DNA from: Neocallimastix lanati (nom. inval.)
Taxonomy: Eukaryota; Neocallimastigomycota; Neocallimastigomycetes; Neocallimastigales; Neocallimastigaceae
Length of the DNA: 23,212 bases
Direction of reading: 5' to 3'
Assembly: GCA_016946835.1 (NCBI GenBank)
Contig: JACVTC010000496.1
Span: 1-23,212 of the forward strand
How positions within the stretch are numbered: the stretch's first letter is position 1; every line of letters starts with the position of its first letter. Under the pieces are notes generated by a model, which saw only the letters and a program-made list of their open reading frames with translations, did no database searches and was not told the origin of the DNA. Positions 1,078 to 22,842 of the stretch are shown piece by piece. The translations under genes and the position numbers were made by a program.

Positions 1078-1148
1078 GGAGAGTGAGTGATTCGAACACC
1101 CAACCTTCCGCTCTGGAGGCGGACGCGCTACCGTTGCGCCAACCCTCC
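1078..1148 (-). tRNA. tRNA-Trp (anticodon CCA), no intron
   Basis: The minus strand folds as a 71-nt cloverleaf: acceptor GGAGGGT/ACTCTCC with one G-T pair, D stem GCGC/GCGC, anticodon stem TCCGC/GCGGA with loop CTCCAGA, a 5-nt variable loop, and T stem GGGTG/CACTC with loop TTCGAAT. Loop positions 34-36 are CCA, which reads UGG, so this is tRNA-Trp. The base after the acceptor is A as discriminator, and CCA is not encoded, as usual in eukaryotes. The A box lies in the D arm and the B box (GGTTCGAAT-like) in the T arm, so the promoter is internal and survives the insertions. Three retrotransposons sit upstream of it from -12 onward. Confidence 0.95.
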
Positions 1149-1159
1149 TTACCTGTTTT

Positions 1160-1163
1160 CGTA
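1160..1163. repeat. Target-site duplication CGTA, left of E1
   Basis: CGTA directly precedes the TG of the E1 5' LTR and recurs after E1 (9331-9334) and after E2 (16342-16345). It occupies -12 to -15 relative to the mature tRNA-Trp 5' end. Confidence 0.9.
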
Positions 1164-1659
1164 TGATAAGAATGTACTAAATAATGCATTCTTAATTAAA
1201 TCTACGATTTATTTCTAATACATTATGTGTACATTATTATTTTTGTACTTTAATAAATTTTTAAATCCAAAGATCAAAAATTAAATCAAAAATTATATTA
1301 AACTTTATATTTTTATATTAAATCTTATATTAATAGTAATATTTTTATATATTTAAAACTTATATTAGCAATATTAATAATAAATCTTATTTTTTTTATA
1401 TTAATAATGAAAATTTATATTAATAATATTTTTATATATTGATAATTAAAAATTTATATATTATATTTTAACTTTTTATTATAAAATTTTATATCGAAAT
1501 GTTTTATTTTATATTGAAAAATATTTTATTTTATTAAAAACCTTTATATTAGAATAGTATTTTTATTTTTATTTGAATATTTTAACAGATTGTAATAAAA
1601 ATTATAGCCAATTAAATAAATTCTTATTAGTAATATTTTAGATATTTTTAAATAAATAA

Positions 1660-1711
<52 letters not shown>

Positions 1712-2046
1712 TTTTATTAATATTATAAATGTATTTTATTTATATTGTTATAATTAAATTTTATATAATTAATTATAAAAATCAATTTAAATTTAATAGT
1801 TTTTAAAAAAAAAAAATAAATAAAATGTAATTTAGTGGCAAGAACAACTTTTATGCCTTGAAAAAAAAGTATAAATAGTTGTAAATTTTGCTACTAATTT
1901 TTAAATATCATCAAATAAAATAAAATCAAATAAAATAAAATAAAATCAAATAAAATCAAATAAATTTATAAATAAAAATAATAAATAAATAAATAAAATT
2001 TGTGTTTCCTTACTTTATTTTTATTTAATTCTCTAAAACCTTAACA
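1164..2046 (+). repeat. E1 5' LTR (883 bp)
   Basis: Runs from TGATAAG to CCTTAACA. Compared by eye with the 3' LTR (882 bp) it shows one substitution (A here, C at 9065) and three homopolymer length changes (A48/A49, A12/A11, A8/A7). An A48 run lies at 1662-1709. A stretch of CAAATAAAAT-like direct repeats at about 1914-1965 lies between the TATA box and the LTR end. Confidence 0.95.
1870..1877 (+). promoter_or_regulatory. TATA box of the E1 LTR promoter
   Basis: TATAAATA lies 169 nt before the LTR end; the 3' LTR copy is at 9154-9161. The unrelated E2 LTR has the same 8-mer 188 nt before its end (9925-9932) and E3 has it on its own strand. The shared position marks the probable U3/R region. 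Confidence 0.6.
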
Positions 2047-2052
2047 TTTATA

Positions 2053-2070
2053 TGGTGGCGATATCGGGGA
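2053..2070 (+). other. E1 primer binding site candidate
   Basis: TGGTGGCGATATCGGGGA begins 6 nt after the LTR. The TGG start matches the complement of a tRNA CCA end, and E2 has the same 18-mer with one change at the same place. The primer tRNA was not identified; it would need an acceptor beginning roughly GGCGATA or GGAGATA. The 6-nt gap is longer than the usual 0-3 nt. Confidence 0.7.
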
Positions 2071-2134
2071 ATTAAATAGAAATAATAGTAAATAACATAG
2101 ATTTTTTTTTTAATTTTTTTTATTTTATATTGAT

Positions 2135-2625
2135 AAACAAGTAAGTCGTTAATCCTTTGATTAACCTATGGCGCTTGTTTGATATATATATAAAAAAAAT
2201 TTTTTTTAAATAAGTAAAATTAAGATTCTAAAAAAACAAATTTTGTAAAATTATAACAAGGAGCGGATAGAGCTCATACACAGTGTATTCTCAGATAGCA
2301 ACAAATTAACTCTATTCATAGTAGGTTATTGAATAGTAGTTAATTTGGAGATTAATTGGAAAGTAGACGAAGGTATTTGGTTACCGACCCGGTAATAATA
2401 GTTCAGCCTTCAACGTTTCAACACACGAAGGTGCGGGTACTTTCCAAGCACTGGCGAATAAGGAGCTTACGTCACCGAAGGCGTAAGATTGTTTTTTTTT
2501 ATATATATTTTTTTTTACTTTTCTTTGTGCTAGTTATAAGGCACTTTATTATATAAAGTATCAGACTTTGGCTAACTTCGCCATTTAAATTTTTTTTATT
2601 TTTTTTTTTATTACTGATACTTTAT
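2135..2625 (+). promoter_or_regulatory. E1-specific structured leader RNA region
   Basis: A dense series of perfect inverted repeats, much richer in G/C than its surroundings. Pairs: 2135-2141/2174-2180 enclosing 2148-2154/2159-2165 with a 4-nt loop; 2261-2264/2272-2275; 2303-2311/2338-2346 continued inward by 2312-2317/2331-2336; 2357-2365/2438-2446 enclosing 2381-2386/2390-2395 and 2407-2411/2427-2431; 2466-2471/2482-2487; and a 12-bp stem 2553-2564/2614-2625. It lies between the PBS and the conserved leader domain and has no counterpart in E2. No known ribozyme, group I intron core or snRNA motif was recognised. A role in packaging or translation is inference. Confidence 0.6.
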
Positions 2626-2741
2626 TTGTTTAATAATTCCTGTAAAAGAATCTTAATTTACTTTGAAAATATTGTGTTTTTAGTTAATTTTTATTAGTTA
2701 ATAAAAATATTATTGAATACTTTTAAAATTTTTTTTTATTC

Positions 2742-2901
2742 CGTACATAGATTATCGGATTAAGTTTATCCTACATAGTAATTGGGCTAGTGGGCTCTGA
2801 ACTGCTATATTTTATATTGAATATAGTAATCGTGGCACACGCGTGGCATGACACCATTAGGTAAGCTGCACGTCAGACAGTGTGTACTATCAGATTGTAC
2901 G
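2742..2901 (+). promoter_or_regulatory. Conserved structured leader RNA domain, E1 copy
   Basis: About 160 nt strongly conserved with E2 10310-10473, although the flanking leaders are unrelated. The closing stem is CGTACA (2742-2747)/TGTACG (2896-2901) here and CGTGCA/TGCACG in E2, a compensatory pair change. An internal hairpin, CTATATT (2805-2811)/AATATAG (2820-2826), becomes CTATTTT/AAAATAG in E2 with an identical 8-nt loop. A third hairpin at 2853-2862 is lengthened in E2 by two pairs. An 8-nt palindrome CACGCGTG (2838-2845) is kept. The only ATG inside (2849) opens reading frames that differ wholly between the two elements, so conservation is at RNA level. Confidence 0.8.
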
Positions 2902-3073
2902 ACAATAAAGATTATTTTTTTTTTGTATTTAATAATTATAATTAATTAATAATTTTATTAGCTATAACAATACAATATTTATCGTTTAAAAAGAAAAATT
3001 TTTGAAAGGTGAAAATAATAAATAAAACTTTGCTTCTAAATTTATTACTACAAATATACTAAATTACAAAATT

Positions 3074-3345
3074 CAAGTGGTCGATAAAGATTTCGAGCTT
3101 GAAAAATATTCTATTAAGTTGTCGATAAAGATTTCGAACTTAAAATTATTCTATTAAGTTGTCGATAAAGATTTCGAACTTAAAATTATTCCATTGAGTT
3201 GTCGATAAAGATTTCGAACTTAAAAATTATTCTATTGAGTTGTCGATAAAGATTTCGAACTTAAAAATTATTCTTAATAAAGTAGTCGAAAAGAACCTCG
3301 TGCTTTATAATTTCTACTAAGTTGTCGATAAGGATTTCGAGCTTA
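3074..3345 (+). repeat. Seven hairpin repeats before E1 gag
   Basis: Seven copies of a ~28-nt unit, five of them at 40-41 nt spacing (starts about 3074, 3116, 3156, 3196, 3237, 3279, 3318). Each has the core GTCGATAAAGATTTCGA or a variant, flanked by complementary arms (AAGTT/AACTT). Arms change together: copy 1 CAAGT/GCTTG, copy 6 AAAGTA/TGCTTT, copy 7 TAAGTT/AGCTTA. The inner CGA/TCG pairing and a 2-nt GT bulge are kept. E2 has no such array. Confidence 0.8.
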
Positions 3346-3520
3346 TATCTACTAAAGAAAGCAAATAAAATTATTATTTTCAAAAAGTTACTAAAATATA
3401 TTGTTTTAAAAATTGATTCGATATTAAATTACCTATTAAATTATATTTTTAAAGTTGTATTTCCAAATTTATTCTTATTTAATCACCTCATTAATATACA
3501 ACAAGAAATATTTAAACAAA

Positions 3521-4432
3521 ATGTCCAAGGAAACAACTTTGAGCTTTAAAGAATTGAAAAAAGAATTAAGAGATATTGTGAAACTTAGCAAGGACAATTT
3601 AGATATTAAGTCCTGGGCTACTGAATTGAAACTTTGGATCAAGATACAAGGTATCACAGATCCAGAAACAATATTTAATGCTTGTTTACTTACCAGCTCT
3701 GGTGAAGTACAACGCGTTATTGAAGATTTGGGAGAAGATAGTGATGATGAAAGTGATGATTCATCAGATGAAGAAGAAGAACATGATGAAGAAGAAAATG
3801 TTGATGATGATATTAAATTTCCTTCTCTTGGAAAAATTATTTCAAGTCTTGAAAATTTTTACGGTATTAAAGAAGACCAAAATTTACTTCTTAAAGAACT
3901 TCGTGCAATGCGAATTAAAAGAAACGAAAAGATTAAGGACTTTAATGTAAGATATAGAACTTTGTACACTAAACTTGATAAAAAGAGAAGAAAGCGCATC
4001 GGTGTACTAGATTATATTGATTCTATTCAAAATAATTATGAAGCCTGGAAGAAATTATCCCTTAAAGATGATATAAGTATGGAGAAAGCTTTCAAAATTG
4101 CCGAGAAAGTAGATAGACTTTCTGTAAGGAACAATAATATTAATACCTATAATGTTAATAATTCCCAGCATAATCAAAATAATCAAAACAGTACTACTTC
4201 AAGACTTTATCCTAAAAGAAGAAACGAAACTTTCCAAACAAGTCAAACAAATAATAAACTGAAACCTCAAGATATTATAGAAGAATCAACCCAGAAAATG
4301 AGAAATTTATCTGTTAAAACTTGCTTCTTCTGTAAGGAAGAAGGTCATTACTCATACTATTGCCCTCAATTAAATAAGATTATGGAAAAAAATAAAAAAG
4401 AAATATATTCCAAAAAGTCTTTAAACTTCTAA
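3521..4432 (+). CDS. gag: E1 Gag (303 aa)
   Basis: Structural protein of the virus-like particle. ATG 3521 is chosen over the upstream in-frame 3455 because it lies in an A-rich context and because homology with E2 Gag (LSFKELKKEL / LSFRELKKEL) starts just after it. Order: helical capsid-like region with a strongly acidic Asp/Glu/Ser tract (about 69-97); a second conserved half (FNVRYRTLYTKLDKKRR, about 141-157); an Asn/Gln-rich linker (204-250); and a zinc knuckle C268-x2-C271-x4-H276-x4-C281 that should bind the RNA. The gene ends at TAA 4430-4432, inside the frameshift signal, so most ribosomes make Gag alone. Confidence 0.9.
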   Translation: MSKETTLSFKELKKELRDIVKLSKDNLDIKSWATELKLWIKIQGITDPETIFNACLLTSSGEVQRVIEDLGEDSDDESDDSSDEEEEHDEEENVDDDIKFPSLGKIISSLENFYGIKEDQNLLLKELRAMRIKRNEKIKDFNVRYRTLYTKLDKKRRKRIGVLDYIDSIQNNYEAWKKLSLKDDISMEKAFKIAEKVDRLSVRNNNINTYNVNNSQHNQNNQNSTTSRLYPKRRNETFQTSQTNNKLKPQDIIEESTQKMRNLSVKTCFFCKEEGHYSYYCPQLNKIMEKNKKEIYSKKSLNF

Positions 4433-4472
4433 ATGGGAGCAGAAGCACTCCCAATGACAAAACAATAGCTTC
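4420..4472 (+). promoter_or_regulatory. -1 ribosomal frameshift signal, E1 gag/pol
   Basis: TTTAAAC at 4420-4426 lies in the gag phase T TTA AAC, a classical -1 slippery heptamer. After an 8-nt spacer that contains the gag stop comes stem 1 GGGAG (4435-4439)/CTCCC (4448-4452). Its loop GAAGC (4442-4446) can pair with GCTTC (4468-4472), giving an H-type pseudoknot with a 15-nt third loop. E2 has the same heptamer, spacer, stems and loop lengths. The -1 frame is open from 4396 to the end of pol. Confidence 0.85.
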
Positions 4473-7400
4473 ATTAAATAATTTACAAAATAATACTTTT
4501 ACCAAGAATACCCCAATTGATAATAATTCCTTTAATAAAGAATCTGAAGAATCTGATTTTAGTGACACAACTGAAAGTGAGGATAATATCATTATAAATG
4601 CTATAAAAAGAAAAATGAATGATAATAACAGCGAAAAGGAAGAAAATAATTCCAAGAAAGTACATAAAAGTTTAAAAGATAATCCACGTCCTTTCGCAAC
4701 TCCTGCTTTAAGAAAGAAGAAAGAAAATGAGCTACATAATAAACCAAATAAAGTTTATAAAAATCAAATACTTCCTTCAATTTTAACTCAACCAAATATT
4801 AACAAAGAAAAACAAAAAGAAAAGGAATTAAGAAATATAACAAGAGTAAGAGAAAGTAAAGAAGAAAACAACAATTATTCATCAAAAGGAAAGAAAAAAG
4901 TTGAATCTGAAGATATACTTGTAATCGATAATGAAATAGAAGATATAGAAATGAATAAAGATAATCAACAAAATAAAACTAATACTTTGGAAAAATTAAT
5001 TTCAACAAAAACTAAAGAAACTAATAATGAAAATACTCAGTTAGTAAAAAGGAATATCAAAATGATGAATAATAAAGAACCTTACAATATTATGGATGAT
5101 TTAAATAATCTTAAATCCAGTATTACGATAGGTCAACTCTTGAATGCATGTCCGAAAATTCGTTCACAATTAACTCAAGGTTTAAAGTTAGAAAAATCTA
5201 AAATAATTGGAACTGTAGACAATGTAATAGCACGAACTTTATTAGTGAATAACTATGATCATAGCTACATAAGTAAAAGTAATGAAGTAGCCGAAGAAGA
5301 CTTAGCAATGGTTGATGCAAGTGTTGACGGAGTACTAGGAAAACTTTTAATTGATTCTTGTAGTAACCTAAGCATCGTTACTAAGCAGTATTTTGATAAA
5401 TTACCTGGTGAATATGAAACAGTTGGAAAAAGTCGTGGAAGAATCCAACTAGCAACACAAGATGAAGAATACTCGGAAGGAATTATTGTTCAATTACCAG
5501 TAAAAATTAATAATTATGAATTTAATGCGGACTTTAGAATTATTGAGAAAGAAGACTCATTTTATGATATGTTAATAAACTTTAAAACTCAAATCGATCA
5601 TTGTTTATTTATTCATCCGACCTTAAACAGTTTATGTAAACTTTTGTCAGAAAGTGAATACGAAGAAATAGCTAAAATAAATAATCAATATTATGATGAA
5701 GAAAGTATAATTTGCACTATTAGAAAAGTTAAAGAAACGAATAATGAAAAGGAAATTATAAAGGAATTAACTCCAATGGAATTTATTGAGAGTGATGAAT
5801 TTTTAAGTACCTTAAATAAAGATTATAAAGAACAAATTATTAAAATTCTCAAAGAAATGATTGACATAGTTGCCACTTCAACAGAAGAACTAACTCCTTC
5901 TAAACTTTCACCACATAAGATCCGTTTGAAAGCAAATTCAAAGCCAGTAAAATTAAGAAGTTATAGGTTAACTAAATTAAAATCAGATATCTTAAAAGAA
6001 GAACTTACAAAACTTATTAAGAAAGGATTGATAGAACCATCCTGTTCAGAATGGTCATCTCCAGTAGTACTTATTCTAAAACACAATGGAAAGTGGCGCT
6101 TGTGCATTGACTACCGAAAAGTCAATGATATGACAGAAAAAGATTCTTATTCAGTTCCATATATAGATGAAATTTTTGATAGTCTCGGAGGAGCTAAAAT
6201 ATTTACAACTCTTGATTTATTTTCTGGTTTTCACCAAATCTTAATGGATGAAGAAAGCGTTGAAGTAACCACTTTCACTACTAAGTTTGGAAATTATCAA
6301 TTTAAGGTTATGCCTTTTGGACTTACTGGAGCTCCCTCAACCTTCCAAAGAGAAATGAATAAAATTTTATTCCCTTTTATTGGTGAATTTGTTTATGTAT
6401 TTATTGATGATGTTTTGATCTATTCAAAAAGTATCGAAGAACATTTAATTCATATTAAACAAGTATTAGAAGTATTTAAAGAAAACAAGTTAAAAATTAA
6501 TATTGAAAAGTGCCATTTTCTTCAAACTGAAGTTGATGTATTAGGTCACAAACTTACTACTAAAGGATTAAGTCCCATGGAAAGTAAAATAACAGCTATT
6601 AAGAAGTGGGAAGCCCCTTCATCAATTCATGAATTAAGATCATTTCTAGGAGCAATAGGGTATTATCGTGACTTTATCCCTAAATATGCTCAAATTACCT
6701 CACCTTTATGTAAATTATTGAAAAAGAATACTAAATATGAATGGAATAAAGAACAACAAGAAAGCTTTGAACTCCTAAAAGAAAAATTAATCAATGCGCC
6801 TATTCTAAAATTTCCGTCATTTGACAAACCTTTTATCATTAGAACTGATGCTTCGTATAATGGAATTGGTGGAGTTCTTTTACAAAAAGAAGAAGAAACC
6901 GGTAAGGAGCATCCAATACACTTTATAAGTAGAAGTTTAAAGAAAGCTGAAAAGAATTATGGTATTACCGATTTGGAAGGAACCGCTTTGTTTTACTGTA
7001 TGACTAAATTTAAATCTTATATTGAAGGAAATCCACTACCTACAACTATTTACACAGATCATAAACCATTAGTTGGTTTATTTAAGAATAAAGAACCTTT
7101 GAATGCAAGGCAAACAAGATGGTGTCTAACCGCTAGTATGCTTGGAATTAATATAAAATATGAATCAGGCAAAAAGAATGTGTTAGCTGATGCTCTTTCA
7201 AGAATGAAAAGTAAGGAAGAGAGAAAGATATTATTAACAAAAATTACTAATGGAAATAATGAAGAATTATTATCTAAAGTTATAAAGGAATTTATTAATG
7301 AAAAGTTTACTGTTATTGATGGTGAAGATTACTTTATCGACAATGGAAATTATAGAAAATTAATAACGGACGAAAATGAAAGGTTTAAATTAATTTTAGA

Positions 7401-8430
7401 AGCTCATAATATTGGCCACGAAGGATATTACAAAACATATCAAAGACTTAAGAAAAACTTTTATTGGAATCATATGATTAAAGATATCAAAAGAATTGTT
7501 AGTAATTGTGAAAAATGCCAGTTAAATCGTCCTCAACCATATCCAGAACCAACCGAAAACCATCCAACTAAAGTGGAGGGTCCCTTTGTGCATTTAGGAT
7601 TAGATATTATAGGACCGTTACCAAAAACAAGAAATAATAATCAATATATTATAGTAACTGTTGATTACTTTACCAAATGGGTTGAAGCCGAACCCACTGA
7701 AAACATAACTTCCTCTGATATAATTAAATTTTTAATAAACGTTTTTGCAAGACATGGTGTCCCTCAAGTTATTACTACTGATAATGGAGTCCAATTCACT
7801 TCTGATATGACTAAAATCTTTCTTGATCTTTATGATGTATATGTTAAATTTGTAGCTACTTACCACCCTGAATCAAATGGCCTTACTGAAAATCGAAATA
7901 AAGAAATTGGAAAATTACTTCGTTTATTAGGAAGGAAAAATCAAGATTGGGATGAAGTTTTACCTTCTGCTTTATGGGCACTTCGAACTACCAAAAACAC
8001 AGCTACCGGACATTCTAGTTTTGAATTAGTATATGGAAGAGAAGACCAACAGCCTTATGATATAGCCATAAGAACAATTGAAAATGCAGGTAAATCGTAT
8101 GATGAAATTTTAATGGAAAAATTTGTTCGTCATTATCAATGGACTAGAGAAGCATGCGAAAATGTGAAGAATGCTAACAAGTATTGGGCAACAAGACGAG
8201 AAGAACAAATAAGTATGAAAAAAGGAAAAGAATTAAAGGCTGGTGATCTTGTTCTTGTTAGAAACTTTAGCCGCACTAAGCTAGAACCATATTACAATGG
8301 ACCATTTAAAATTTTAAAAATTCAATTCAACACGGCAACCCTAATCGATCAGAAGACTGGAAAGCAACTCGATAGGAATGTTCACTTTAAAAATTTAGTA
8401 AAGTTTAACTCCGCTTACAGAGAAGCTTGA
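4426..8430 (+). CDS. pol: E1 Pol: protease, reverse transcriptase, RNase H, integrase
   Basis: Made as Gag-Pol by -1 frameshifting; the frame opens at 4396 inside gag, so ATG 4615 is probably internal. Numbered from that ATG: a Lys/Glu/Asn-rich linker to ~230; retropepsin-like protease with D247-S-C instead of D-S/T-G; RT ~445-650 with D499 (CIDYRKVN), D534 (LDLFSGFHQ) and FIDD 596-599; RNase H with D745, E788, D815, D859; integrase with zinc finger H931/H935/C965/C968 and DD35E triad D997, D1056, E1092; a GPF motif at 1229-1231. It copies the element RNA into DNA and inserts it. No chromodomain. No frame break, and all RT, RNase H and integrase catalytic residues are present. Its stop is 18 nt before the 3' LTR. 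Confidence 0.95.
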   Translation, partial: LLNGSRSTPNDKTIASLNNLQNNTFTKNTPIDNNSFNKESEESDFSDTTESEDNIIINAIKRKMNDNNSEKEENNSKKVHKSLKDNPRPFATPALRKKKENELHNKPNKVYKNQILPSILTQPNINKEKQKEKELRNITRVRESKEENNNYSSKGKKKVESEDILVIDNEIEDIEMNKDNQQNKTNTLEKLISTKTKETNNENTQLVKRNIKMMNNKEPYNIMDDLNNLKSSITIGQLLNACPKIRSQLTQGLKLEKSKIIGTVDNVIARTLLVNNYDHSYISKSNEVAEEDLAMVDASVDGVLGKLLIDSCSNLSIVTKQYFDKLPGEYETVGKSRGRIQLATQDEEYSEGIIVQLPVKINNYEFNADFRIIEKEDSFYDMLINFKTQIDHCLFIHPTLNSLCKLLSESEYEEIAKINNQYYDEESIICTIRKVKETNNEKEIIKELTPMEFIESDEFLSTLNKDYKEQIIKILKEMIDIVATSTEELTPSKLSPHKIRLKANSKPVKLRSYRLTKLKSDILKEELTKLIKKGLIEPSCSEWSSPVVLILKHNGKWRLCIDYRKVNDMTEKDSYSVPYIDEIFDSLGGAKIFTTLDLFSGFHQILMDEESVEVTTFTTKFGNYQFKVMPFGLTGAPSTFQREMNKILFPFIGEFVYVFIDDVLIYSKSIEEHLIHIKQVLEVFKENKLKINIEKCHFLQTEVDVLGHKLTTKGLSPMESKITAIKKWEAPSSIHELRSFLGAIGYYRDFIPKYAQITSPLCKLLKKNTKYEWNKEQQESFELLKEKLINAPILKFPSFDKPFIIRTDASYNGIGGVLLQKEEETGKEHPIHFISRSLKKAEKNYGITDLEGTALFYCMTKFKSYIEGNPLPTTIYTDHKPLVGLFKNKEPLNARQTRWCLTASMLGINIKYESGKKNVLADALSRMKSKEERKILLTKITNGNNEELLSKVIKEFINEKFTVIDGEDYFIDNGNYRKLITDENERFKLILEAHNIGHEGYYKTYQRLKKNFYWNHMIKDIKRIVSNCEKCQLNRPQPYPEPTENHPTKVEGPFVHLGLDIIGPLPKTRNNNQYIIVTVDYFTKWVEAEPTENITSSDIIKFLINVFARHGVPQVITTDNGVQFTSDMTKIFLDLYDVYVKFVATYHPESNGLTENRNKEIGKLLRLLGRKNQDWDEVLPSALWALRTTKNTATGHSSFELVYGREDQQPYDIAIRTIENAGKSYDEILMEKFVRHYQWTREACENVKNANKYWATRREEQISMKKGKELKAGDLVLVRNFSRTKLEPYYNGPFKILKIQFNTATLIDQKTGKQLDRNVHFKNLVKFNSAYREA

Positions 8431-8438
8431 GTCTTCGT

Positions 8439-8448
8439 CGGGGCATCT
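8439..8448 (+). other. E1 polypurine tract region
   Basis: Between the pol stop and the 3' LTR lies a G run (CGGGG) followed by CATCT. E2 has GCGGGGG and the same CATCT at the same place. The G run is the likely plus-strand primer; the five bases between it and the LTR are unusual. Confidence 0.5.
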
Positions 8449-8944
8449 TGATAAGAATGTACTAAATAATGCATTCTTAATTAAATCTACGATTTATTTC
8501 TAATACATTATGTGTACATTATTATTTTTGTACTTTAATAAATTTTTAAATCCAAAGATCAAAAATTAAATCAAAAATTATATTAAACTTTATATTTTTA
8601 TATTAAATCTTATATTAATAGTAATATTTTTATATATTTAAAACTTATATTAGCAATATTAATAATAAATCTTATTTTTTTTATATTAATAATGAAAATT
8701 TATATTAATAATATTTTTATATATTGATAATTAAAAATTTATATATTATATTTTAACTTTTTATTATAAAATTTTATATCGAAATGTTTTATTTTATATT
8801 GAAAAATATTTTATTTTATTAAAAACCTTTATATTAGAATAGTATTTTTATTTTTATTTGAATATTTTAACAGATTGTAATAAAAATTATAGCCAATTAA
8901 ATAAATTCTTATTAGTAATATTTTAGATATTTTTAAATAAATAA

Positions 8945-8997
<53 letters not shown>

Positions 8998-9330
8998 TTT
9001 TATTAATATTATAAATGTATTTTATTTATATTGTTATAATTAAATTTTATATAATTAATTATAACAATCAATTTAAATTTAATAGTTTTTAAAAAAAAAA
9101 ATAAATAAAATGTAATTTAGTGGCAAGAACAACTTTTATGCCTTGAAAAAAAGTATAAATAGTTGTAAATTTTGCTACTAATTTTTAAATATCATCAAAT
9201 AAAATAAAATCAAATAAAATAAAATAAAATCAAATAAAATCAAATAAATTTATAAATAAAAATAATAAATAAATAAATAAAATTTGTGTTTCCTTACTTT
9301 ATTTTTATTTAATTCTCTAAAACCTTAACA
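8449..9330 (+). repeat. E1 3' LTR (882 bp)
   Basis: Copy of 1164-2046 with one substitution and three homopolymer length differences. It contains A49 at 8947-8995 and TATAAATA at 9154-9161. It is followed directly by CGTA and then by the E2 5' LTR. Confidence 0.95.
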
Positions 9331-9334
9331 CGTA
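9331..9334. repeat. Shared target-site duplication CGTA between E1 and E2
   Basis: This single CGTA serves as right duplication of E1 and left duplication of E2, which is what two insertions into the same four bases would leave. Confidence 0.9.
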
Positions 9335-10120: not shown

Positions 10121-10128
10121 TGAAAAAT

Positions 10129-10146
10129 TGGTGGAGATATCGGGGA
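10129..10146 (+). other. E2 primer binding site candidate
   Basis: TGGTGGAGATATCGGGGA differs from the E1 site by one base and begins 8 nt after the LTR. Its first nine bases also match the complement of the 3' end of the neighbouring tRNA-Trp (with CCA), but the match stops there, so Trp is not a convincing primer. Confidence 0.65.
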
Positions 10147-10309
10147 ATATAATAATAAATTAATACATTGGGGATAAAATTATAATATTAATAAATAATT
10201 TTTCTAATAAAACAAATATTTTTTTTAAAAAAGAAAACAATTTTTATATTTTTAACTAATTATTATTAATTGTTAAAAATATTAATTAATATTAAATTAA
10301 ACTAATATT

Positions 10310-10473: not shown

Positions 10474-10632
10474 ATTATTATAATTTAATAAGTGATTAAT
10501 AATAATAAATAATTAATAATTTTATTAGTTAAAAGATTTATTTTTTTTTTTAATTTTTTTTATTTTTACTTTTTTATAACAATTTATACATTACGAGGTT
10601 TAGCATTCTATAGATACAATAAATTTTATTTT

Positions 10633-14800: not shown

Positions 14801-15532
14801 GAGCCCACTGAAAATGTTACTTCTCAGGATGTGATAAAATTTTTAATTAATGTATTTGCTCGACACGGTGTACCTCAAATTATCACTACTGATAATGGAA
14901 CACAATTTACATCAGATATGACAAAAATCTTCCTTGATTTATATGATGTATATGTTAAATTTATCACTCCATATCATCCTGAAAGCAATGGTTTAGTTGA
15001 GAATCGTAATAAAGAAATTGGAAAATTATTACGATTACTAGGACAACACAAAGAATGGGATGAAATTTTACCATCTGCACTTTGGGCTTTAAGAACTACT
15101 AAAAACTCAATCACCAACCATTCAAGTTTTGAATTAGTTTATGGAAGGGAGGACCAACAACCTTTTGACATTGCTGCCAGACCTACTAAGGGTATAAATA
15201 AGTCTTCTGACGAAATTCTACTGGAAAAATTTGTATCACACTACCAATGGGTAATGGAGGCCGCATCTAATATCAAAAATGCTTCGAAATATTGGGCTAC
15301 TAGGAGAGAAGAAAAGACCAGTATGAATCAAGCTAAAAGAATAAAACCAGGTGATTTAGTACTAGTAAGAAACTTTAATCGAACTAAATTAGAACCTTAC
15401 TTTGTTGGACCTATGAAAGTGGTAAAGAAACAATTCAATACAGTCACTTTAGCTGATCCTGCTACTAATATACAAATGAATCGTAATGTTCATTTGAAAA
15501 ATATTGTCAAGTTTAACTCAGCTTCTACCTAG
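11828..15532 (+). CDS. pol: E2 Pol main part: protease, reverse transcriptase, RNase H, integrase
   Basis: Open frame beginning after the frame break; homology with E1 Pol begins at about 11831, and the first ATG (11924) is internal to that homology, so it is not a natural start. Numbered from 11924: protease with D179-S-C; RT with D433, D468 and FIDD 530-533; RNase H with D679, E722, D749, D793; integrase with H865/H869/C899/C902 and DD35E D931, D990, E1026; GPM at 1162-1164 in place of GPY/F; no chromodomain. All catalytic residues are intact. Because the LTRs are identical yet Pol cannot be joined to Gag without repairing the frame, this copy either was supplied enzymes in trans, broke after insertion, or is misread. 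Confidence 0.92.
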   Translation, partial: AVTLGLRKQKENQLRGTSRPVKKPTTQLHPSIMAQPRIEKEKRIEKELRDKERASTSTSVENNKNSIVNIINEETSQEGNNSKQTLNKLIQEKSSEKSTEIMPTRIPKRIQMQTDCDSYDVIKDLNSSNCNITFGQLLDVAPKIRSQVSQGLKLEKNNTKISGAVDNMCATTIITNNIDHTYKSKHHEPQEDDIAMVDVIVDGVRGKALIDSCSNLSIITKQFLDKLPYQYEPIGVSAGRIRLATMNDDYSEDVLIKVPVKINELELLVTCRIIDKEDPFYDILINLKTQIDNQLFIHPIRYSLCRFNDQGLIEEIAPINNEYDDEEKLLCVIKALNHQEAKQQLKTIEGLPPIKYIYDTVFQSTINSNYREAITKLLEEYIDIIATSSEELTPSDLSPHKIILKEGVKPIKQKFYRLSKLKTDILKEELTKLIYKRLIEPSCSEWSSPVVLVPKKNGKWRLCIDYRKVNEATKKDSYSLPNIEEIFDSLDGAKIFSILDLYSGYHQILMDDDSVEITTFTTKFGNYQFKVMPFGLTGAPATFQREMNRILFPLIGKCVYNFIDDILIYSRTEEEHLEHLKQVLEIFKEHKLKINIEKCSFMQTEVEVLGHKVSSEGLSPLENKVKAIKEWKAPSNIHELRSFLGAIGYYRNFIKDFAKVTAPLCTLLRKGIKFEWKKEQEESFKILKERLINAPILRFPRFDREFIIRTDASYDGIGGVLLQKDDETGKEHPVHYISRSLSKSEKNYGITDLEGAALIYCINKLKSYIMGNPKQTIVYTDHRPLIGLLKSKEPQNSRHTRWCLTVSMLGIDLRYETGKNNVVADALSRMKNEKEKVVLTTQIIKEQDENLLSRTIKEFIEEKFTTIDGVDYFVDGNNYRKLVTDTKEKLQLIFQAHSIGHEGYYKTYQRLKKSYYWNNMVNDIKRIIGKCEKCQLNKSQPYPEPTEDKPTEVEGPFTHLGLDIIGPLSKTRNNNQYIIVVVDYFTKWVEAEPTENVTSQDVIKFLINVFARHGVPQIITTDNGTQFTSDMTKIFLDLYDVYVKFITPYHPESNGLVENRNKEIGKLLRLLGQHKEWDEILPSALWALRTTKNSITNHSSFELVYGREDQQPFDIAARPTKGINKSSDEILLEKFVSHYQWVMEAASNIKNASKYWATRREEKTSMNQAKRIKPGDLVLVRNFNRTKLEPYFVGPMKVVKKQFNTVTLADPATNIQMNRNVHLKNIVKFNSAST

Positions 15533-15543
15533 CTTGAGTCTTA

Positions 15544-15555
15544 GCGGGGGCATCT
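15544..15555 (+). other. E2 polypurine tract region
   Basis: GCGGGGG followed by CATCT, between the pol stop and the 3' LTR. Same arrangement as E1, including the extra five bases before the LTR. Confidence 0.5.
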
Positions 15556-16341
15556 TAATACAGAATGAACAAATAATACTAATTGTGCTAGAATAATATA
15601 AATTATTCTAACCTTATAGATTATTCTATTCTATATAATTGGAACTTTCCAATATTCTTCAAATATTACTAAATAGAAATCTTAAGTTAATAAATCACCA
15701 ATTAACTTATAATTCCTTTTTGAATTATCGATCCGATTCCATTATAATGTATTAAAAATCTTTAGCCAAGAATATTGTCCTTGCCTACTTAATATATTAA
15801 TATTATATTTCTTTTGTAATATGTTATATTGAAAATAATCAAATCAATTTAATTAGTTATTAAAATTTTCGTTATCAATTTAAATTTATTTTTAATAACT
15901 AAATTTAACTAAACCACAATTAAAATATTCTGTATAATTTCTTTATTTTTATTTTATATATATTAATATTAAACTATTATTAAATGATTAATAATTCAAT
16001 AATATAAAACTAATATTTATAACAATAATATTATTAACTAAAATAATAATTTAATTTCAATTTAAATGTTTTATTTATTAAAATAATTAGTAATTAGTTT
16101 ATTAAGAAATAGTTAGGCTTTACAAGTTTTAATTTGATAAAAAAATATAAATACATGTAATTTTAGTGAAATAAAATATAATCAATAACTTTCTTTTTAT
16201 TAAATAAATAATTATATTATTATTTTTCTTTTATAAATTTAAATAAATAAATATTGATTTTAAAACAAATTATTTTTTTATTGTAATTTTATTATTTGTG
16301 TTAATTATTATTATATTCCTAAAATTATATGAACCATACCA
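15556..16341 (+). repeat. E2 3' LTR (786 bp)
   Basis: Identical by eye to 9335-10120. It is followed by CGTA and then TG, which together contain the left target duplication of E3. Confidence 0.95.
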
Positions 16342-16347
16342 CGTATG
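16342..16347. repeat. Overlapping target duplications: CGTA (E2) and GTATG (E3)
   Basis: CGTATG contains the right duplication of E2 (16342-16345) and the left duplication of E3, GTATG (16343-16347), which recurs at 22838-22842. The two integration sites are therefore offset by one base in the original target. Confidence 0.88.
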
Positions 16348-17231
16348 TGTAATAATTCTATTAAGAACTAACTCAAAATAGAATTATTAACTACAACTTA
16401 ACGACTAATTCATTAAGTTGAGAAAATAAAATAAAATAAATTTTTTTTTACCTTTAATGTAGAGTTTATTATAAAATTAATTATAATAATAACACAACAT
16501 GTAAGAGAAGAATTGTTTGTATAAATTGATCTTAAATATATGTTTTTGAATAAAATATTTTTATTAATTTATTAAAGTTAAAAATATAAAAATGTTACTA
16601 TTATAACTATGTTTTTTATAATAATAACTCTTGATTTCTCAAAGAGAACTCAAGAGCCTTATTTATATTTTTTTATGAAAATAAGGTTAAATAAGAAAGG
16701 GTTTTCTAATCTTAACAAATCTCTTATCTAGGAAAAGATTAGATAGAAAAACCTAGATAAGTTTTCGATCGATATTCTATCCATATCGATCATCGCATTA
16801 ATTAAGTAAAACCGATTACTTCTAAAAAGTAATTGGAAAAAATCTTAATTAACCGATTTTCTAATCTAATCTAATGATCGAAAATAAAAGAATAAAATAA
16901 TAAAAGATATTTCGATCATATAATTTATTCTTATATTAAAAATATAAAATTAAATAGTTAATAAAATACAGAATACATTATAAAATACAGAATACATTAT
17001 AAAATACAGAATAAAATACAATACAAAACACATTAGTTACAGTAGAGAATTTAACATATTGTAAATATATTATTTAAAATTAATTAAATAAATTTTGTTA
17101 AATTAATGAATATTTAAAATTAAATTAAATAAATTTAATAAATATTATATGTAATTAAATAAAGTTATAGTTATAATAACTTAACTAAGAAAATATAATT
17201 ATTTGTTAGCAAATAATTATAGATTCTTACA
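16348..17231 (-). repeat. E3 3' LTR (884 bp, left copy)
   Basis: Same length as 21954-22837; two substitutions seen by eye (one A/T near 16433, one T/C near 16930). It is built of many perfect inverted repeats, including 16350-16362/16377-16389 and 17195-17205/17210-17220 at its two ends. A tandem ~19-bp repeat containing AAAATACAGAATACATT lies at about 16963-17010. Confidence 0.93.
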
Positions 17232-17244
17232 TTGCTCTGTTTAA

Positions 17245-20200
17245 TTATGATGTTTCCATTAAGTCTTCACTTCTTTTAGTATATGGTTCCAATTGTGAGA
17301 TATGAAATACCGAATGGAGATGTAAGTTCTCTGGAAGTTCCAAACGGTAATTCATTCTTTCCCTTTTCTCGATGATTTTAAAAGGTCCAAGAAATTGAGT
17401 GGATAATTTTCTAGAAGGTTCATTCGTAAAGTAGTATCTTCTAAGCATAACCAAATCATTTACCTTAAAGTCAGGTCCTACAGATTTTTTATTGTCAGCA
17501 TATTTCTTAAAATCTTCTTTGGCTTTAACTAAATGTTGACGAAGGGCATTGAAATGTGAAGACCAATCCCTTGTAAGAACAGAAGCACTATCTTTTAGCA
17601 GAATCGGTGGTGAATCAATAACACAATTTGGGTCAAATCCATAGTTAGCATGAAAAGGAGTTTGAGCTATTGATTTGTGAATGGAGTTGTTGTAGGACAT
17701 TTCACATAAAGGGAGGTAGAAACACCATTCATTTTGAGCAGAAGAACAATAGCAGCGAAGATATTGTTCTATTACAGCATTAGCCCTTTCAACCTGACCA
17801 TTTGATTGTTGGTGGTGAGCAGTAGCAAGTCTTGGTTTAGCACGAATAGCATCGCACAACGAAGTCCAAAATTGAGAAGAGAATTGGGAGCCATGATCAG
17901 ACACAATCACTTTAGGAAAACCATGATACTTAAAGACTTGGAAAAGTAAGAGCTTGGCAGTTAAGTCGGCAGAGGGAACATCGGAGCAGGGTACTAAATG
18001 AATCATTTTAGTTAAATGATCAGAAACAACCATGATACAAGTGCAATCTTGTGAAGAAGGCAATGAAACAATAAAATCGACGCCAATAACTTCCCAGGGT
18101 TTTGTAGGAGTAGGAAGTGGTATTAGTTTACCATAAGGTTTATGACGACGGATTTTATTTCTACAACAAACATCACAAGAAGCCACATAATTTGAAATAT
18201 CTTTTTTCATATTAGGCCACCAGTAGTTCCTTCTGAGTTTTTCAAAGGTCCTATCTACCCCCTGATGGCCACTAGTGGGTGCATCATGGAAAGACTTTAA
18301 AAGTCTAGCCCTGAGACTGGAAGGGATAATAATACGCTTTTGAAAGTGAAGTACGCCATCGACGAAGGAAAATAAAGAACTTTTGATGTTGTTTGACTTA
18401 TCCCTTATTTTTAAGAGGATATTTTTACAATAATTATCAGCTTTTTGTGCTTCAATAAGACTACTAATATTGTCATTTATAGCACAACAGAAAGCATTAT
18501 TGTTAATTACAGGTTGTGATTCAGATGAAGAGTCAGATTTAAAATCTGGGCGTCTTGAAAGAGCATCTGGTTTGCCACTTTTAGTGCCTGATCTGAATGC
18601 AATCCTATAGTCAAACTTTGATAAAAAGAGACTCCAACGAATTTGTCTTTGATTTAAATGTTGGGGTTTCTTAAAATACAATAAGTTCTTGTGGTCTGTT
18701 ATTACTTGAACAGGAAATTTTGCGCCTTCTAAATGATGCCTCCAAGTTTCAAACGCAGTAATTATAGCAAGAAGTTCTTTATCATATATAGTATAATTGA
18801 CTTCTGCTTTATTGAGGGATCTAGAATGGAAGGCTACGGGATGCAATAAGTTATCAGTGTCACTAACCTGAGAAAGTATGCATCCGACAGCAAAGTCGCT
18901 AGCATCTGTTTCAACGATGAATTCTTTCTCTGGATTAGGAAAAATGAGCACTTCATCAGCTTTAAAAGATTCTTTCAATTTATTAAAAGCTTCATTTGCT
19001 GATTCATCCCAATTAAATGTAGTATTTTTCCTTAAAAGTCGACGAAGAGGTTCCATATTTTTGGCAAAATTATTGATAAACTTTCTATAGAAATTACATA
19101 AGCCTAGAAAACTTTGTAATTCCTTTTGATTCTTCGGAATAGGCCAATCCAGAACAGATTTTACCTTATCCTTATCCATAGTGAGACCATCTACAGAAAC
19201 AGTGAAGCCTAAGAAAGTGGTTTTAGTAACATGGAAGTCACATTTCTCTAATTTAGCATATAATCCATTGTTGATGAGAAGTTGAAGAACGATCCTAACA
19301 TGTTTAATATGTTCTTCTTCGTTGTTAGAGTAGATAATGATGTCGTCCAGATAGACTTGCATGAAAGAACCAATGATATCACTGAAGATATCTTGTACAA
19401 AACGTTGAAAAACCGAAGGGGCATTTCGAAGACCAAAAGGCATAACGAGATATTTGAAATGTCCTAAAGGGGTTCTAAAAGCAGTAAGATATTCGTGACC
19501 TTCTTTAACTCTGATTAGGTTATAAGCAGATCTAAGGTCAAGACGAGTAAATATCTTAGCTCCTTGAAAGGATTCAATCAAGTCATTTATTCGTGGAATT
19601 GGGTAGCTATTACGGATTGTGATAGCATTTAATCGGCGATAATCTACACAGAGTCTAAGGGTACCATCGCGTTTCATTACAAATAATATAGGAGCACCTG
19701 CTGGTGATTTTGACTTCCTAATGAATTTCTTTTTTAAGTTTTCCTTAATATAATCCTTTAAAGCTTTCAGTTCTTGTACAGTAAGAGAGTATATTGGACC
19801 AAAATAAAGTTGTCCACCAGGAATAAGCTCAATAGCAATATCATAGTCACGATGAGGTGGTAAGTTCTCAGCTTGTTTCTTTTCAAATACTATTTTAAGA
19901 TCCGAATAGTATTTATTAATAATCTCTTCTTTTCCCTGAACGTCAGTGTGTACTTCTTCTGAATCAATCATTGCAGCACATAAATCAGAATCTGAGATAT
20001 CTGTATCAAAAGCCGAATTTGGTAATACTGAATCTTCTTCTGAATTCTCCAACATTGAAGCAGTAATATTTTTATTTTGATTAAAAAACTTATTACTTTT
20101 GGAGGATGGGCAATGTGAGCCACAGTATCTACCAAGGAAGTAGATTCTATTATTTTTATAATCGATGAAAGGATTGTGAACGGATAACCAATCCCTTCCA

Positions 20201-20910
20201 AGAATACCATTAATGCCCTGAAGAGATAGATTAGCAATGCAGAATTCAAAAGTTTCCTTATGATCCATAAATTTTAATTTAAGAGGCTTAGTAGTTTGTC
20301 TAATATTCATACTTTTCCCATTAGGAAGTTGGATGTTGATTTGGGAATTGAGTCCTAACACAGGTAATTTATTAGAATTTGCGAAGTTTTTACAAATAAA
20401 ACTTCTGGCAGAACCCGAATCAATTAATAGATTTGCCTTAATATTTCTTCCATTAATATCAAGGTAGAAGGTAGTTGTGATTGTTGTTTTAATATTCGGT
20501 GTGTAATTTGCTGAAAGTATGTCGTTTTTAGACTTATTTTTTCTGAAATGAGAATGTTTAGAATTCTTTTCTGATTTTAATAAATCGTTTCTCTTCCTAT
20601 GAAACGACATTTTTCCATTAAATTTATTTTTTTGATTGTGGCGTAGACGACTTTCCAAAAAACACTTCTTATCAATTCCAATAATAATGTTGGTAGCTTC
20701 AAAAAGAGTAGATGGCTTTTCGAGTTTATCAAACTCTTCGCGGACTTTGTCAAGTAGACCCTTACCGATTATATCGATTAAAACTTCGTCGGGCCATCCT
20801 AAACGTCCAGCCAATCTCCGAAATTCAATAGTATATTCAGCAACATTTCCTAGTTGAAGTTGTTTCAATTTCCATAACTTTTCCATAAGCAACTGCGCAA
20901 TATCCAGCAC
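17245..20910 (-). CDS. pol: E3 truncated Gag fused to protease, reverse transcriptase, RNase H, integrase
   Basis: The frame opens after a TGA with GTG at 20910; the first ATG is at 20886, and neither is likely the original start. Residues ~9-75 (MEKLWKLKQLQ, EYTIEFRRLAGRLGW, ..GKGLLDKVREEF) are the second half of a Ty3/gypsy Gag domain; the first half is missing and a basic Lys/Asn/His stretch stands where a CCHC knuckle is usual. Then: protease D164-S-G with GILGRDW (235-241); RT with D423, D458 and YLDD 520-523; RNase H D669, E712, D739, D783; integrase H875/H882/C912/C915 with DD35E D945, D1005, E1041; GPF 1175-1177. Gag and Pol are one frame. The stop is 13 nt from the 3' LTR; no chromodomain. 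The polymerase part looks intact. Confidence 0.93.
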   Translation of the reverse strand: MLDIAQLLMEKLWKLKQLQLGNVAEYTIEFRRLAGRLGWPDEVLIDIIGKGLLDKVREEFDKLEKPSTLFEATNIIIGIDKKCFLESRLRHNQKNKFNGKMSFHRKRNDLLKSEKNSKHSHFRKNKSKNDILSANYTPNIKTTITTTFYLDINGRNIKANLLIDSGSARSFICKNFANSNKLPVLGLNSQINIQLPNGKSMNIRQTTKPLKLKFMDHKETFEFCIANLSLQGINGILGRDWLSVHNPFIDYKNNRIYFLGRYCGSHCPSSKSNKFFNQNKNITASMLENSEEDSVLPNSAFDTDISDSDLCAAMIDSEEVHTDVQGKEEIINKYYSDLKIVFEKKQAENLPPHRDYDIAIELIPGGQLYFGPIYSLTVQELKALKDYIKENLKKKFIRKSKSPAGAPILFVMKRDGTLRLCVDYRRLNAITIRNSYPIPRINDLIESFQGAKIFTRLDLRSAYNLIRVKEGHEYLTAFRTPLGHFKYLVMPFGLRNAPSVFQRFVQDIFSDIIGSFMQVYLDDIIIYSNNEEEHIKHVRIVLQLLINNGLYAKLEKCDFHVTKTTFLGFTVSVDGLTMDKDKVKSVLDWPIPKNQKELQSFLGLCNFYRKFINNFAKNMEPLRRLLRKNTTFNWDESANEAFNKLKESFKADEVLIFPNPEKEFIVETDASDFAVGCILSQVSDTDNLLHPVAFHSRSLNKAEVNYTIYDKELLAIITAFETWRHHLEGAKFPVQVITDHKNLLYFKKPQHLNQRQIRWSLFLSKFDYRIAFRSGTKSGKPDALSRRPDFKSDSSSESQPVINNNAFCCAINDNISSLIEAQKADNYCKNILLKIRDKSNNIKSSLFSFVDGVLHFQKRIIIPSSLRARLLKSFHDAPTSGHQGVDRTFEKLRRNYWWPNMKKDISNYVASCDVCCRNKIRRHKPYGKLIPLPTPTKPWEVIGVDFIVSLPSSQDCTCIMVVSDHLTKMIHLVPCSDVPSADLTAKLLLFQVFKYHGFPKVIVSDHGSQFSSQFWTSLCDAIRAKPRLATAHHQQSNGQVERANAVIEQYLRCYCSSAQNEWCFYLPLCEMSYNNSIHKSIAQTPFHANYGFDPNCVIDSPPILLKDSASVLTRDWSSHFNALRQHLVKAKEDFKKYADNKKSVGPDFKVNDLVMLRRYYFTNEPSRKLSTQFLGPFKIIEKRERMNYRLELPENLHLHSVFHISQLEPYTKRSEDLMETS

Positions 20911-21418
20911 TCAGCATGGCAGTTAAACCTCCAGCTACACAACTAGCACCAGCACTTACAACAGCAGCCCATGTACATCCGGCAACTAGGGTAACTCCGA
21001 TAGCCCCGATACATTCTAAAAAACCTTTAGTATCAGCTCTCTTACCTAATGATAATTCGTTAATATTGGTTATTCCCTTGACTAATTCATTACCGGATTC
21101 TGTATCGGCATAAGTCAATAAAACTGGTAAGTTTACTTTTAATTCGTCTTTGCCTCTAACTTTAATTACATTTTCATCAAAATAACTTAAGAAATTTTTA
21201 AATTCTTTTGGAATTTGTGAGTTAAGTTTTATAATTATGTCATTTTTTTCAAAACTATAATTTGAAACGTCTGAAGCATAAGTATCTATATATCCTAAAA
21301 TATCTTGGGTCAATGTGACATTTTTCAAGTCTAAATCTGATCTTAAAATACTTACATTATAGCTAAATACTATTTTAATTAAAATTAAAGTACCTAAAAT
21401 ATATTTTATAAAGTTCAT
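20837..21418 (-). CDS. Captured small secreted protein with dibasic cleavage site, 193 aa
   Basis: Family not recognised. ATG 21418 follows an A-rich context. Residues 1-20 are a typical signal peptide (MNFIKYILGTLILIKIVFSY). A polar, Asp/Asn-rich region (21-125) looks like a propeptide, ended by LGKR (124-127), a kexin-type site. The remainder is a Gly/Ala/Val-rich hydrophobic core with cysteines at 136, 148, 160 and 174, spaced 12, 12 and 14. The last ~15 residues (from about 178, including CC at the end) are gag sequence read out of frame, so the native C-terminus is lost. The stop at 20837 lies inside the gag remnant, a 74-nt overlap with the next frame. It could be an antimicrobial- or killer-like secreted peptide, judged from shape alone. 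An envelope-like protein is less likely, as env normally follows pol. Confidence 0.75.
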   Translation of the reverse strand: MNFIKYILGTLILIKIVFSYNVSILRSDLDLKNVTLTQDILGYIDTYASDVSNYSFEKNDIIIKLNSQIPKEFKNFLSYFDENVIKVRGKDELKVNLPVLLTYADTESGNELVKGITNINELSLGKRADTKGFLECIGAIGVTLVAGCTWAAVVSAGASCVAGGLTAMLSAGYCAVAYGKVMEIETTSTRKCC

Positions 21419-21724
21419 TTTTTTTTTACTTTTTGAAAATTGTTAATATTTTTTTTTTTTTTTTTATTTTTTAAAATTTTTATTTATTTCTTTATTTATT
21501 TATTATTATTATAGTTATTTTTTTTTTTTTTAATTATTTTCAATTATTATTTCTATTCTTAGTTATATTATCTAAAATTATTATTATTATTCTATACTAT
21601 TAATTCTAAATTATTAAAATAATACTAATCTATTATATATTTATTCTAAAATTATTTTAATTAAATTATTATAATCTAAAACTATTCTAGAATATTAATT
21701 TATTATTCTATTATTAACTATAAA

Positions 21725-21774
<50 letters not shown>

Positions 21775-21953
21775 CAATCAAAATTGCTAATAAAAAAATT
21801 TTTTTTTGCGCCACTCTAGCTATATATTATTATTGTATTCTAATATATATAATTTCAATAGACTAATTCACTAATAAAATTTCCAATGTTACACTATTCT
21901 AAAAATTTTTCACATTTTATCTAACCCTAAGCTAATCTAAGAAGAGTTATTAT
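21419..21953 (-). other. E3 leader: AT-rich, with T46 run
   Basis: Between the 5' LTR and the captured gene. Almost pure A/T, with T46 at 21729-21774 and an isolated GCGCCACTCTAGC near 21808. Next to the LTR, reading on the minus strand, is TAATAACTCTTCTTAG; no TGG-type primer site follows. The part nearest the LTR may be the original element leader and the rest captured host 5' sequence, but no boundary can be seen. No coding frame. Confidence 0.55.
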
Positions 21954-22837
21954 TGTAATAATTCTATTAAGAACTAACTCAAAATAGAATTATTAACTAC
22001 AACTTAACGACTAATTCATTAAGTTGAGAAAATAAAATATAATAAATTTTTTTTTACCTTTAATGTAGAGTTTATTATAAAATTAATTATAATAATAACA
22101 CAACATGTAAGAGAAGAATTGTTTGTATAAATTGATCTTAAATATATGTTTTTGAATAAAATATTTTTATTAATTTATTAAAGTTAAAAATATAAAAATG
22201 TTACTATTATAACTATGTTTTTTATAATAATAACTCTTGATTTCTCAAAGAGAACTCAAGAGCCTTATTTATATTTTTTTATGAAAATAAGGTTAAATAA
22301 GAAAGGGTTTTCTAATCTTAACAAATCTCTTATCTAGGAAAAGATTAGATAGAAAAACCTAGATAAGTTTTCGATCGATATTCTATCCATATCGATCATC
22401 GCATTAATTAAGTAAAACCGATTACTTCTAAAAAGTAATTGGAAAAAATCTTAATTAACCGATTTTCTAATCTAATCTAATGATCGAAAATAAAAGAATA
22501 AAATAATAAAAGATATTTCGATCATATAATTTATCCTTATATTAAAAATATAAAATTAAATAGTTAATAAAATACAGAATACATTATAAAATACAGAATA
22601 CATTATAAAATACAGAATAAAATACAATACAAAACACATTAGTTACAGTAGAGAATTTAACATATTGTAAATATATTATTTAAAATTAATTAAATAAATT
22701 TTGTTAAATTAATGAATATTTAAAATTAAATTAAATAAATTTAATAAATATTATATGTAATTAAATAAAGTTATAGTTATAATAACTTAACTAAGAAAAT
22801 ATAATTATTTGTTAGCAAATAATTATAGATTCTTACA
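21954..22837 (-). repeat. E3 5' LTR (884 bp, right copy)
   Basis: Pair of 16348-17231. On the minus strand it starts TGTAAGAATC and ends with TTATTACA. It contains TATAAATA (22273-22266) and the same chain of inverted repeats as the left copy. Confidence 0.93.
22266..22273 (-). promoter_or_regulatory. TATA box of the E3 5' LTR promoter
   Basis: TATAAATA on the minus strand. Three bases downstream begins a 12-bp hairpin (CTCTTGA/TCAAGAG outside, TTCTC/GAGAA inside), which would overlap the transcript start. The left LTR copy is at 16660-16667. Confidence 0.5.
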
Positions 22838-22842
22838 GTATG
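22838..22842. repeat. Right target-site duplication GTATG of E3
   Basis: Matches 16343-16347. Joined to the sequence left of E1 it gives the original site CGTATG followed by ATACGG. Confidence 0.9.

Follow-up and report, generated by a model that had tools for sequence, protein, structure and literature searches.

We observed that three long terminal repeat (LTR) retrotransposons, named E1, E2 and E3, are stacked upstream of a tRNA-Trp gene on contig JACVTC010000496.1 (C441) of the anaerobic gut fungus Neocallimastix lanati. The window analysed here, 23,212 bases, is this entire contig, and the genome searched comprises 199 Mb in 762 contigs. The nearest LTR end, that of E1, sits 15 bp from the tRNA gene. 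From this site, from samples of tRNA loci and from the flanks of other copies, we conclude that several Ty3/gypsy families very probably integrate at tRNA-type RNA polymerase III (Pol III) promoters, ~13-18 bp ahead of the mature 5' end, most likely via transcription factor IIIB (TFIIIB). Anaerobic gut fungi form an early-diverging fungal phylum. The features of the window are as follows (ORF, open reading frame; RT, reverse transcriptase; aa, amino acids).

1077..1148, minus strand: tRNA-Trp(CCA), called by ARAGORN, which anchors the stack and has its 5' end at 1148
1160..1163, no strand: CGTA before E1, from the junction reading
1164..9330, plus strand: E1, a Ty3/gypsy element with LTRs at 1164-2046 and 8449-9330
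3440..4432, plus strand: E1 gag-like ORF, 330 aa stop to stop, from the ORF reading
4396..8430, plus strand: E1 pol ORF with RT, RNase H and integrase; chromodomain not found
9331..9334, no strand: target-site copy CGTA at the E1/E2 boundary; this junction recurs on contigs C211 and C136 (loci L015 and L016)
9335..16341, plus strand: E2, a Ty3/gypsy element with identical LTRs at 9335-10120 and 15556-16341
10513..11550, plus strand: E2 gag-like ORF, 345 aa stop to stop
11828..15532, plus strand: E2 pol ORF (66% identity to that of E1 across 1248 columns)
16342..16347, no strand: CGTATG, in which the old target CGTA is followed by the opening TG of a fourth LTR (E4); duplicated by E3
16348..22837, minus strand: E3, of a second gypsy lineage in reversed orientation, with LTRs at 16348-17231 and 21954-22837
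17245..20910, minus strand: E3 gag-pol ORF of 1221 aa, whose integrase has a C-terminus of the Tf2-1 SH3 type; no chromodomain detected
22838..22842, no strand: GTATG, the right copy of the 5-bp duplication of E3, whose final TG belongs to E4
22841..23212, plus strand: E4, the first part of a fourth LTR, truncated where the contig stops

A first-pass annotation of this DNA had described three LTR retrotransposons at one site upstream of tRNA-Trp, flanked by CGTA, CGTA and GTATG. The LTR pairs and junctions confirmed this, and the flanks could be read directly in the order CGTA[E1]CGTA[E2]CGTATG[E3]GTATG. An LTR pair and the order RT, RNase H, integrase are present in E1, E2 and E3, which assigns all three to Ty3/gypsy (Metaviridae). 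Identity between the pol products is 66% for E1 and E2 and 32% for E1 and E3, in agreement with the two gypsy lineages proposed earlier, and both orientations are represented as claimed, with E1 and E2 on the plus strand and E3 on the minus strand. The LTR pairs are near-identical (E1, 880 matches with 1 mismatch and 3 gap columns; E2, 786/786; E3, 882/884), which suggests recent insertions. The E1 gag-like product had no Pfam match, and 7 of its 56 matches were named: five carry the label Orpsp1_1, which we take to be Orpinomyces, one is from Piromyces sp. E2 and one from Anaeromyces robustus. All seven are from anaerobic fungi, the source that the first-pass annotation had thought probable.

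Three further observations concern the elements themselves. The E1 leader contains a ~40-bp tandem repeat at 3076-3266 (four 70-nt copies in register, spacing 40-41). Upstream of its gag-pol frame, E3 has an extra ORF of 201 aa (20837-21442, minus strand) with a start that by eye resembles a signal peptide; a search with it returned nothing but its own copy and a single protein (source ENA) at 47% identity, and it is possibly a captured host gene. The distance between LTR starts in this E3 is ~600-650 bp below that of pairs on C357, C13 and C371.

The stack extends beyond E3. The sequence TGATACGG from 22841 is the start of E4 and matches 39 other places among those listed, about ten of them in pairs ~5.5 kb apart (the best 40 of 2361 first-look candidates were scored). 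Since this right flank is the E4 start, CGTATGATACGG, which had been proposed as the empty allele, includes part of an LTR and was rejected. C136 carries a complete E4 solo LTR at 16931-17531, then CGTATT, then an E3-like LTR at 17538-18501; inspection by eye suggests a possible sixth LTR beyond it. The stack has five or more layers.

The duplicated bases also record the order of some insertions. The duplication GTATG of E3 consists of GTA from the old site and the TG of E4, so E3 arrived later than E4 and entered on the tRNA side. As a test of layering, we read outward at 10 loci where an E3-type copy lies beside E2 with three bases between them. The loci on C132 and C2 were readable, and in both the 5-bp duplication comprises the three spacer bases and the first two bases of E2 (TATTA and TTCTA). 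The overlap seen in the window as GTA+TG thus recurs as TAT+TA and TTC+TA at two further loci. These three cases show that the later copy entered on the promoter side at an identical offset, and other stacks may have been built in the same order. For E1 and E2, the duplications give no insertion order.

To assess tRNA genes independently of the elements, we took every second match among 40 listed for tRNA-Trp and 40 listed for tRNA-Gly (98 and 78 first-look candidates, respectively). The resulting 40 loci comprise 20 Trp genes, 11 Gly genes and 9 Cys-Gly pairs; one Trp entry, which is this locus as it appears on C211, was swapped for its neighbour in the list. The tRNA-Trp of the window itself has at least 40 identical copies elsewhere in the genome among the matches listed. 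An LTR terminus was called with 40-base words, where an LTR end common to another locus was followed directly by divergence. By this measure, 31 of the 40 loci have a terminus 9-22 bp upstream, compared to 4/40 and 3/40 in upstream control intervals at 40-53 and 80-93 bp. Under a strict rule that excludes loci with the same tRNA, the count was 25/40, with 4/40, 3/40 and 2/40 in the controls at 40-53, 80-93 and 200-213 bp. Words of 60 bases again gave 31/40 (downstream control 11/40). Words of 24 bases gave 36/40, but the controls rose to 17 downstream and to 23 and 15 upstream of 40, and they were replaced by the 40-base words. At all nine tRNA-Cys/tRNA-Gly pairs, in which a short spacer separates the genes, the terminus precedes the first gene, as expected if the Pol III start, rather than the tRNA itself, is the mark. 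Separately, we noted that C555:170000-400000 holds many top-scoring tRNA matches in one orientation, several of them ~540 bp apart, and is a long tRNA array.

Next, we read the outer flanks of other copies of E1-E3. The samples were 30 of the best 40 scored LTR places for E1, including this locus on C211 and C136, and 20 stretches each from the upper part of the lists for E2 and E3 (40 scored places each). First-look candidates numbered 1219-2361 per LTR query, which are upper bounds and not copy counts. A total of 98 flanks could be read (E1, 32; E2, 31; E3, 35). ARAGORN identified a real tRNA 14-18 bp away in eight of them (Trp, Val, Met, Glu, Ala and three Gly), the Trp case being this same locus on C211. 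Another 15 flanks have, 13-18 bp away, an A box and a B box that mimic a tRNA promoter (12 called by pattern and L027, L060 and L082 by eye). Among the remaining 75, a loose rule flagged 55 as having another LTR terminus starting within 12 bp; several of the 20 unflagged flanks start with TG after 3-5 bases or are, by eye, starts of the LTRs of a further family, T. Where E1 adjoins a promoter, the LTR nearest to it is the 5' one in 15 cases and the 3' one in a single case. E1 made a 4-bp duplication in 10/10 copies with both ends read, one of which is this locus on C211. The duplicated bases vary by locus (CGTA, ACTC, ACTG, ACTT, TTAA, TTGT, ATAA, TAAA and TAAG), and at the present site the duplications are 4 bp for E2 and E4 and 5 bp for E3. 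The first-pass annotation had expected other copies of these families to lie near Pol III genes, and the two samples agree with it: insertions occupy the same position at several kinds of tRNA gene.

The promoter mimic sits near the 5' end of the LTRs of T (TGTAACG...CGTTACA), a family with 955 first-look candidates. Neither ARAGORN nor Rfam (10 loci, E up to 1) found a tRNA in it, and hence we named it a promoter mimic. The spacing from A box to B box is 42-44 bp in six T subtypes, compared to 42-43 bp in two real tRNAs. In an alignment of five T subtypes with a mean conservation of 0.49, the value is 0.77 in the B-box window and 0.89 in the TATAAATA window; it is 0.56-0.67 in the A-box windows and reaches 0.7-0.77 in a few others. 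We considered a short interspersed nuclear element as the source of the tRNA-like flanks and rejected it: the repeats are 500-640 bp long, start with TGTAACG and end with CGTTACA (T1 and T2; other subtypes end similarly by eye), and they occur in pairs ~5.2-5.3 kb apart that flank a coding interior. The copy at L124 has 644-bp LTRs and an ORF of 825 aa (L124:2663-5137), in which Pfam finds a Ty3-type capsid and a chromodomain (PF00385, E 1.5e-17). A protease region and part of an integrase align to E3, and neither RT nor RNase H was found in this ORF. With the RT-less form as query, the ORF is free of stops in 52 of 55 places listed. T looks like an amplified deletion derivative whose reading frame has apparently been kept open.

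The T LTRs are themselves a target. We examined 19 of 40 listed T LTRs, which by eye comprise 15 that are 5' or solo and 4 that are 3' LTRs. In ten of the 15, E1, E4 or another LTR interrupts the sequence 13-16 bp ahead of the mimic (seven distinct junctions), and none of the four 3' LTRs is interrupted. Five intact 5' flanks of T, with their bases read by eye, contain no tRNA, so T is apparently no tRNA targeter. We tentatively raise the possibility, which we regard as somewhat doubtful, that T placed a tRNA-type Pol III promoter in its LTR upstream of the TATAAATA box, of RNA polymerase II type, that this promoter seats TFIIIB in vivo, and that it draws Pol III-targeted families off tRNA genes, with T either parasitised or exploited as a decoy by them. 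In that case, the seated TFIIIB might serve T as a boundary against silencing.

How the elements find these sites is suggested by three features: the distance, the A and B boxes found at tRNA genes and T LTRs alike, and the position of termini at the Cys-Gly pairs all point to the use of TFIIIB. TFIIIC on the A and B boxes would seat TFIIIB upstream of the tRNA, and the integrases would bind the seated TFIIIB, which would fix the insertion distance. A new copy would then enter between the promoter and the earlier copy, giving layered LTRs with the youngest beside the tRNA, and the A-box/B-box promoter of the T LTR would take the same insertions as a putative TFIIIB platform. In Ty3, the C-terminal domain of the integrase touches TBP and a vestigial chromodomain touches Brf1, according to the structure described in PMC8632968. 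E1, E2 and E3 appear to lack chromodomains, as had been claimed: a search of the last 160 residues (E up to 10) gave no Pfam Chromo match, and each frame stops directly after the integrase C-terminal domain, although a diverged form of the fold could be present. The E3 and E1 frames stop 8 and 7 residues past the stretch aligned to Ty3, which continues for ~100 further residues. Ty3 (7q5b) is the best solved-structure match for the whole E1 pol and E3 ORFs; for the E1 integrase alone, foamy virus integrase is a better match than Ty3. If E1-E3 use TFIIIB, they would do so without a recognisable form of the chromodomain-Brf1 contact of Ty3.

Several results weigh against our reading of the data. 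In the Ty3 structure, Brf1 is contacted by a vestigial chromodomain, of which the E1-E3 integrases have no recognisable counterpart. The layer test was readable and fitting at only 2/10 loci; the far end was not found at five and the interior of an element was met at two, and on C37 the end that was found does not fit, though it is possibly the end of another LTR. The terminus test is noisy in this A/T-rich genome, with 11/40 in the upstream control at 150-163 bp and 16/40 in the downstream control at 9-22 bp. Under the strict rule, 9/40 remained at 120-133 bp upstream, 7/40 at 9-22 bp downstream, where the seven ends lie in A-rich hexamers, and 8/40 at 40-53 bp downstream. Nine of the 40 tRNA loci have no proven terminus, and none was seen by eye at L093, L098 and L102. 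Other Pol III genes were sampled at eight of nine listed 5S matches and at six U6 places, four of them over the cut-off. An E4 terminus lies 8 bp upstream of one 5S gene (L144); none was found at the other seven 5S places, five of whose upstream regions are near-identical copies, and none was visible at the six U6 places. According to PMC5006619, Ty3 uses the full set of Pol III genes, and the use of 5S and U6 genes here is weaker than that.

A further point against our interpretation is that several loci are near-duplicates, so the counts exceed the number of independent events. Duplication of whole blocks, by segmental copying or as haplotypes, could in principle have multiplied one old tRNA-LTR insertion: L019/L022 are 99.9% identical over 1.5 kb, L026/L030, L089/L092, L125/L126 and L135/L136/L143 are further near-copies, the tRNA genes appear to have been amplified (first-look candidates, 98 and 78), and C441 overlaps C211 and C136. 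We consider this improbable, because the LTR families, the gaps (13 to 18 bp), the duplications and the tRNA genes all differ. Selection instead of tethering, with wide insertion and survival only near tRNA genes where insertions are harmless, would accord with the view of tRNA neighbourhoods as safe sites for mobile elements expressed in PMC5006619. It is nevertheless very improbable: a survival filter would not hold the position to a few bp while the duplicated bases vary by locus, the distance is equal at T LTRs, which are no tRNA genes, and E3-type copies duplicated three old bases and two LTR bases in three cases.

The integrity of the assembly was assessed from overlapping contigs. The end of C211 overlaps the window up to position 17237, and the start of C136 overlaps it from 5905 to its end, the latter with no mismatch and 16 gap positions; over both contigs there are 0-1 mismatch and some gaps. 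Because of these overlaps, the E1-E2-E3 adjacency is present in three contigs, which may have been built from the same reads, and C211, C441 and C136 could be joined. Given 0-1 mismatch, the idea that C136 or C211 is a second haplotype was set aside in favour of overlapping contigs. That the stack is an assembly artefact is scarcely credible, even with highly similar repeats on these contigs, since the junctions recur in all three with 0-1 mismatch and the duplications fit stepwise insertion.

In conclusion, targeting of Pol III sites extends to an anaerobic gut fungus, in which two or more gypsy lineages take part and the majority of sampled tRNA loci are hit. The stacked elements preserve a record, made in nature, of highly precise DNA targeting, and their layers give relative insertion ages at a single site resolved to the base pair. 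With integrases that lack the Ty3 chromodomain contact and yet keep the same distance, the question of the minimal TFIIIB tether would become directly testable, and the T LTR could serve as a naturally occurring target other than a tRNA gene for asking whether A and B boxes alone suffice. Within titles and abstracts on anaerobic-fungal LTR elements and tRNA genes, on LTR decoys, on LTRs in connection with TFIIIC, B boxes and chromodomains, or on nested Ty3 solo LTRs, with incomplete coverage, we found no report of this case.

Among known systems, Table 1 of PMC5911963 lists the Pol III-targeted gypsy elements Ty3, Ty3p, Tj1, Tca8/beta, Tyl3, Ylt1, Tyl6 and DGLT-A; the hosts in that table are ascomycete yeasts and dictyostelids, with no member from the anaerobic fungal phylum. 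Like Ty3 of Saccharomyces cerevisiae, the present elements have a Ty3/gypsy pol and insert within a few bp upstream of where Pol III starts on tRNA genes, and E3 shares the 5-bp duplication described for Ty3 in PMC8632968. They differ from Ty3 in host group, in the 4-bp duplications of E1 (10/10) and, at this locus, of E2 and E4, in having no chromodomain remnant in E1-E3, in stacking with overlap of older LTR ends, and in the absence of termini at U6 (0/6 places). DGLT-A of Dictyostelium, as presented in PMC5006619, is likewise a chromodomain-less gypsy element that inserts ~15 bp upstream of tRNA genes; its host group is unrelated, and the 20 insertions given there for D. discoideum compare to 31/40 sampled tRNA loci here and to 1219-2361 first-look candidates per LTR query, the latter being upper bounds. 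The closest parallel to T is Helenus (TRIMp3), whose LTRs contain tRNA-like sequence as the T LTR contains A and B boxes at tRNA spacing. Helenus is described in PMC10886601 as short and non-autonomous, in Pucciniales and several Agaricomycetes, whereas T has an 825-aa ORF (capsid, protease region, partial integrase and chromodomain) and no Rfam tRNA match. T is moreover a target of other elements, a role that the description of Helenus in PMC10886601 does not assign to it. New in the present system are the host group, the heavy occupancy, the order within the stack and a second target, the mimic carried in an LTR.

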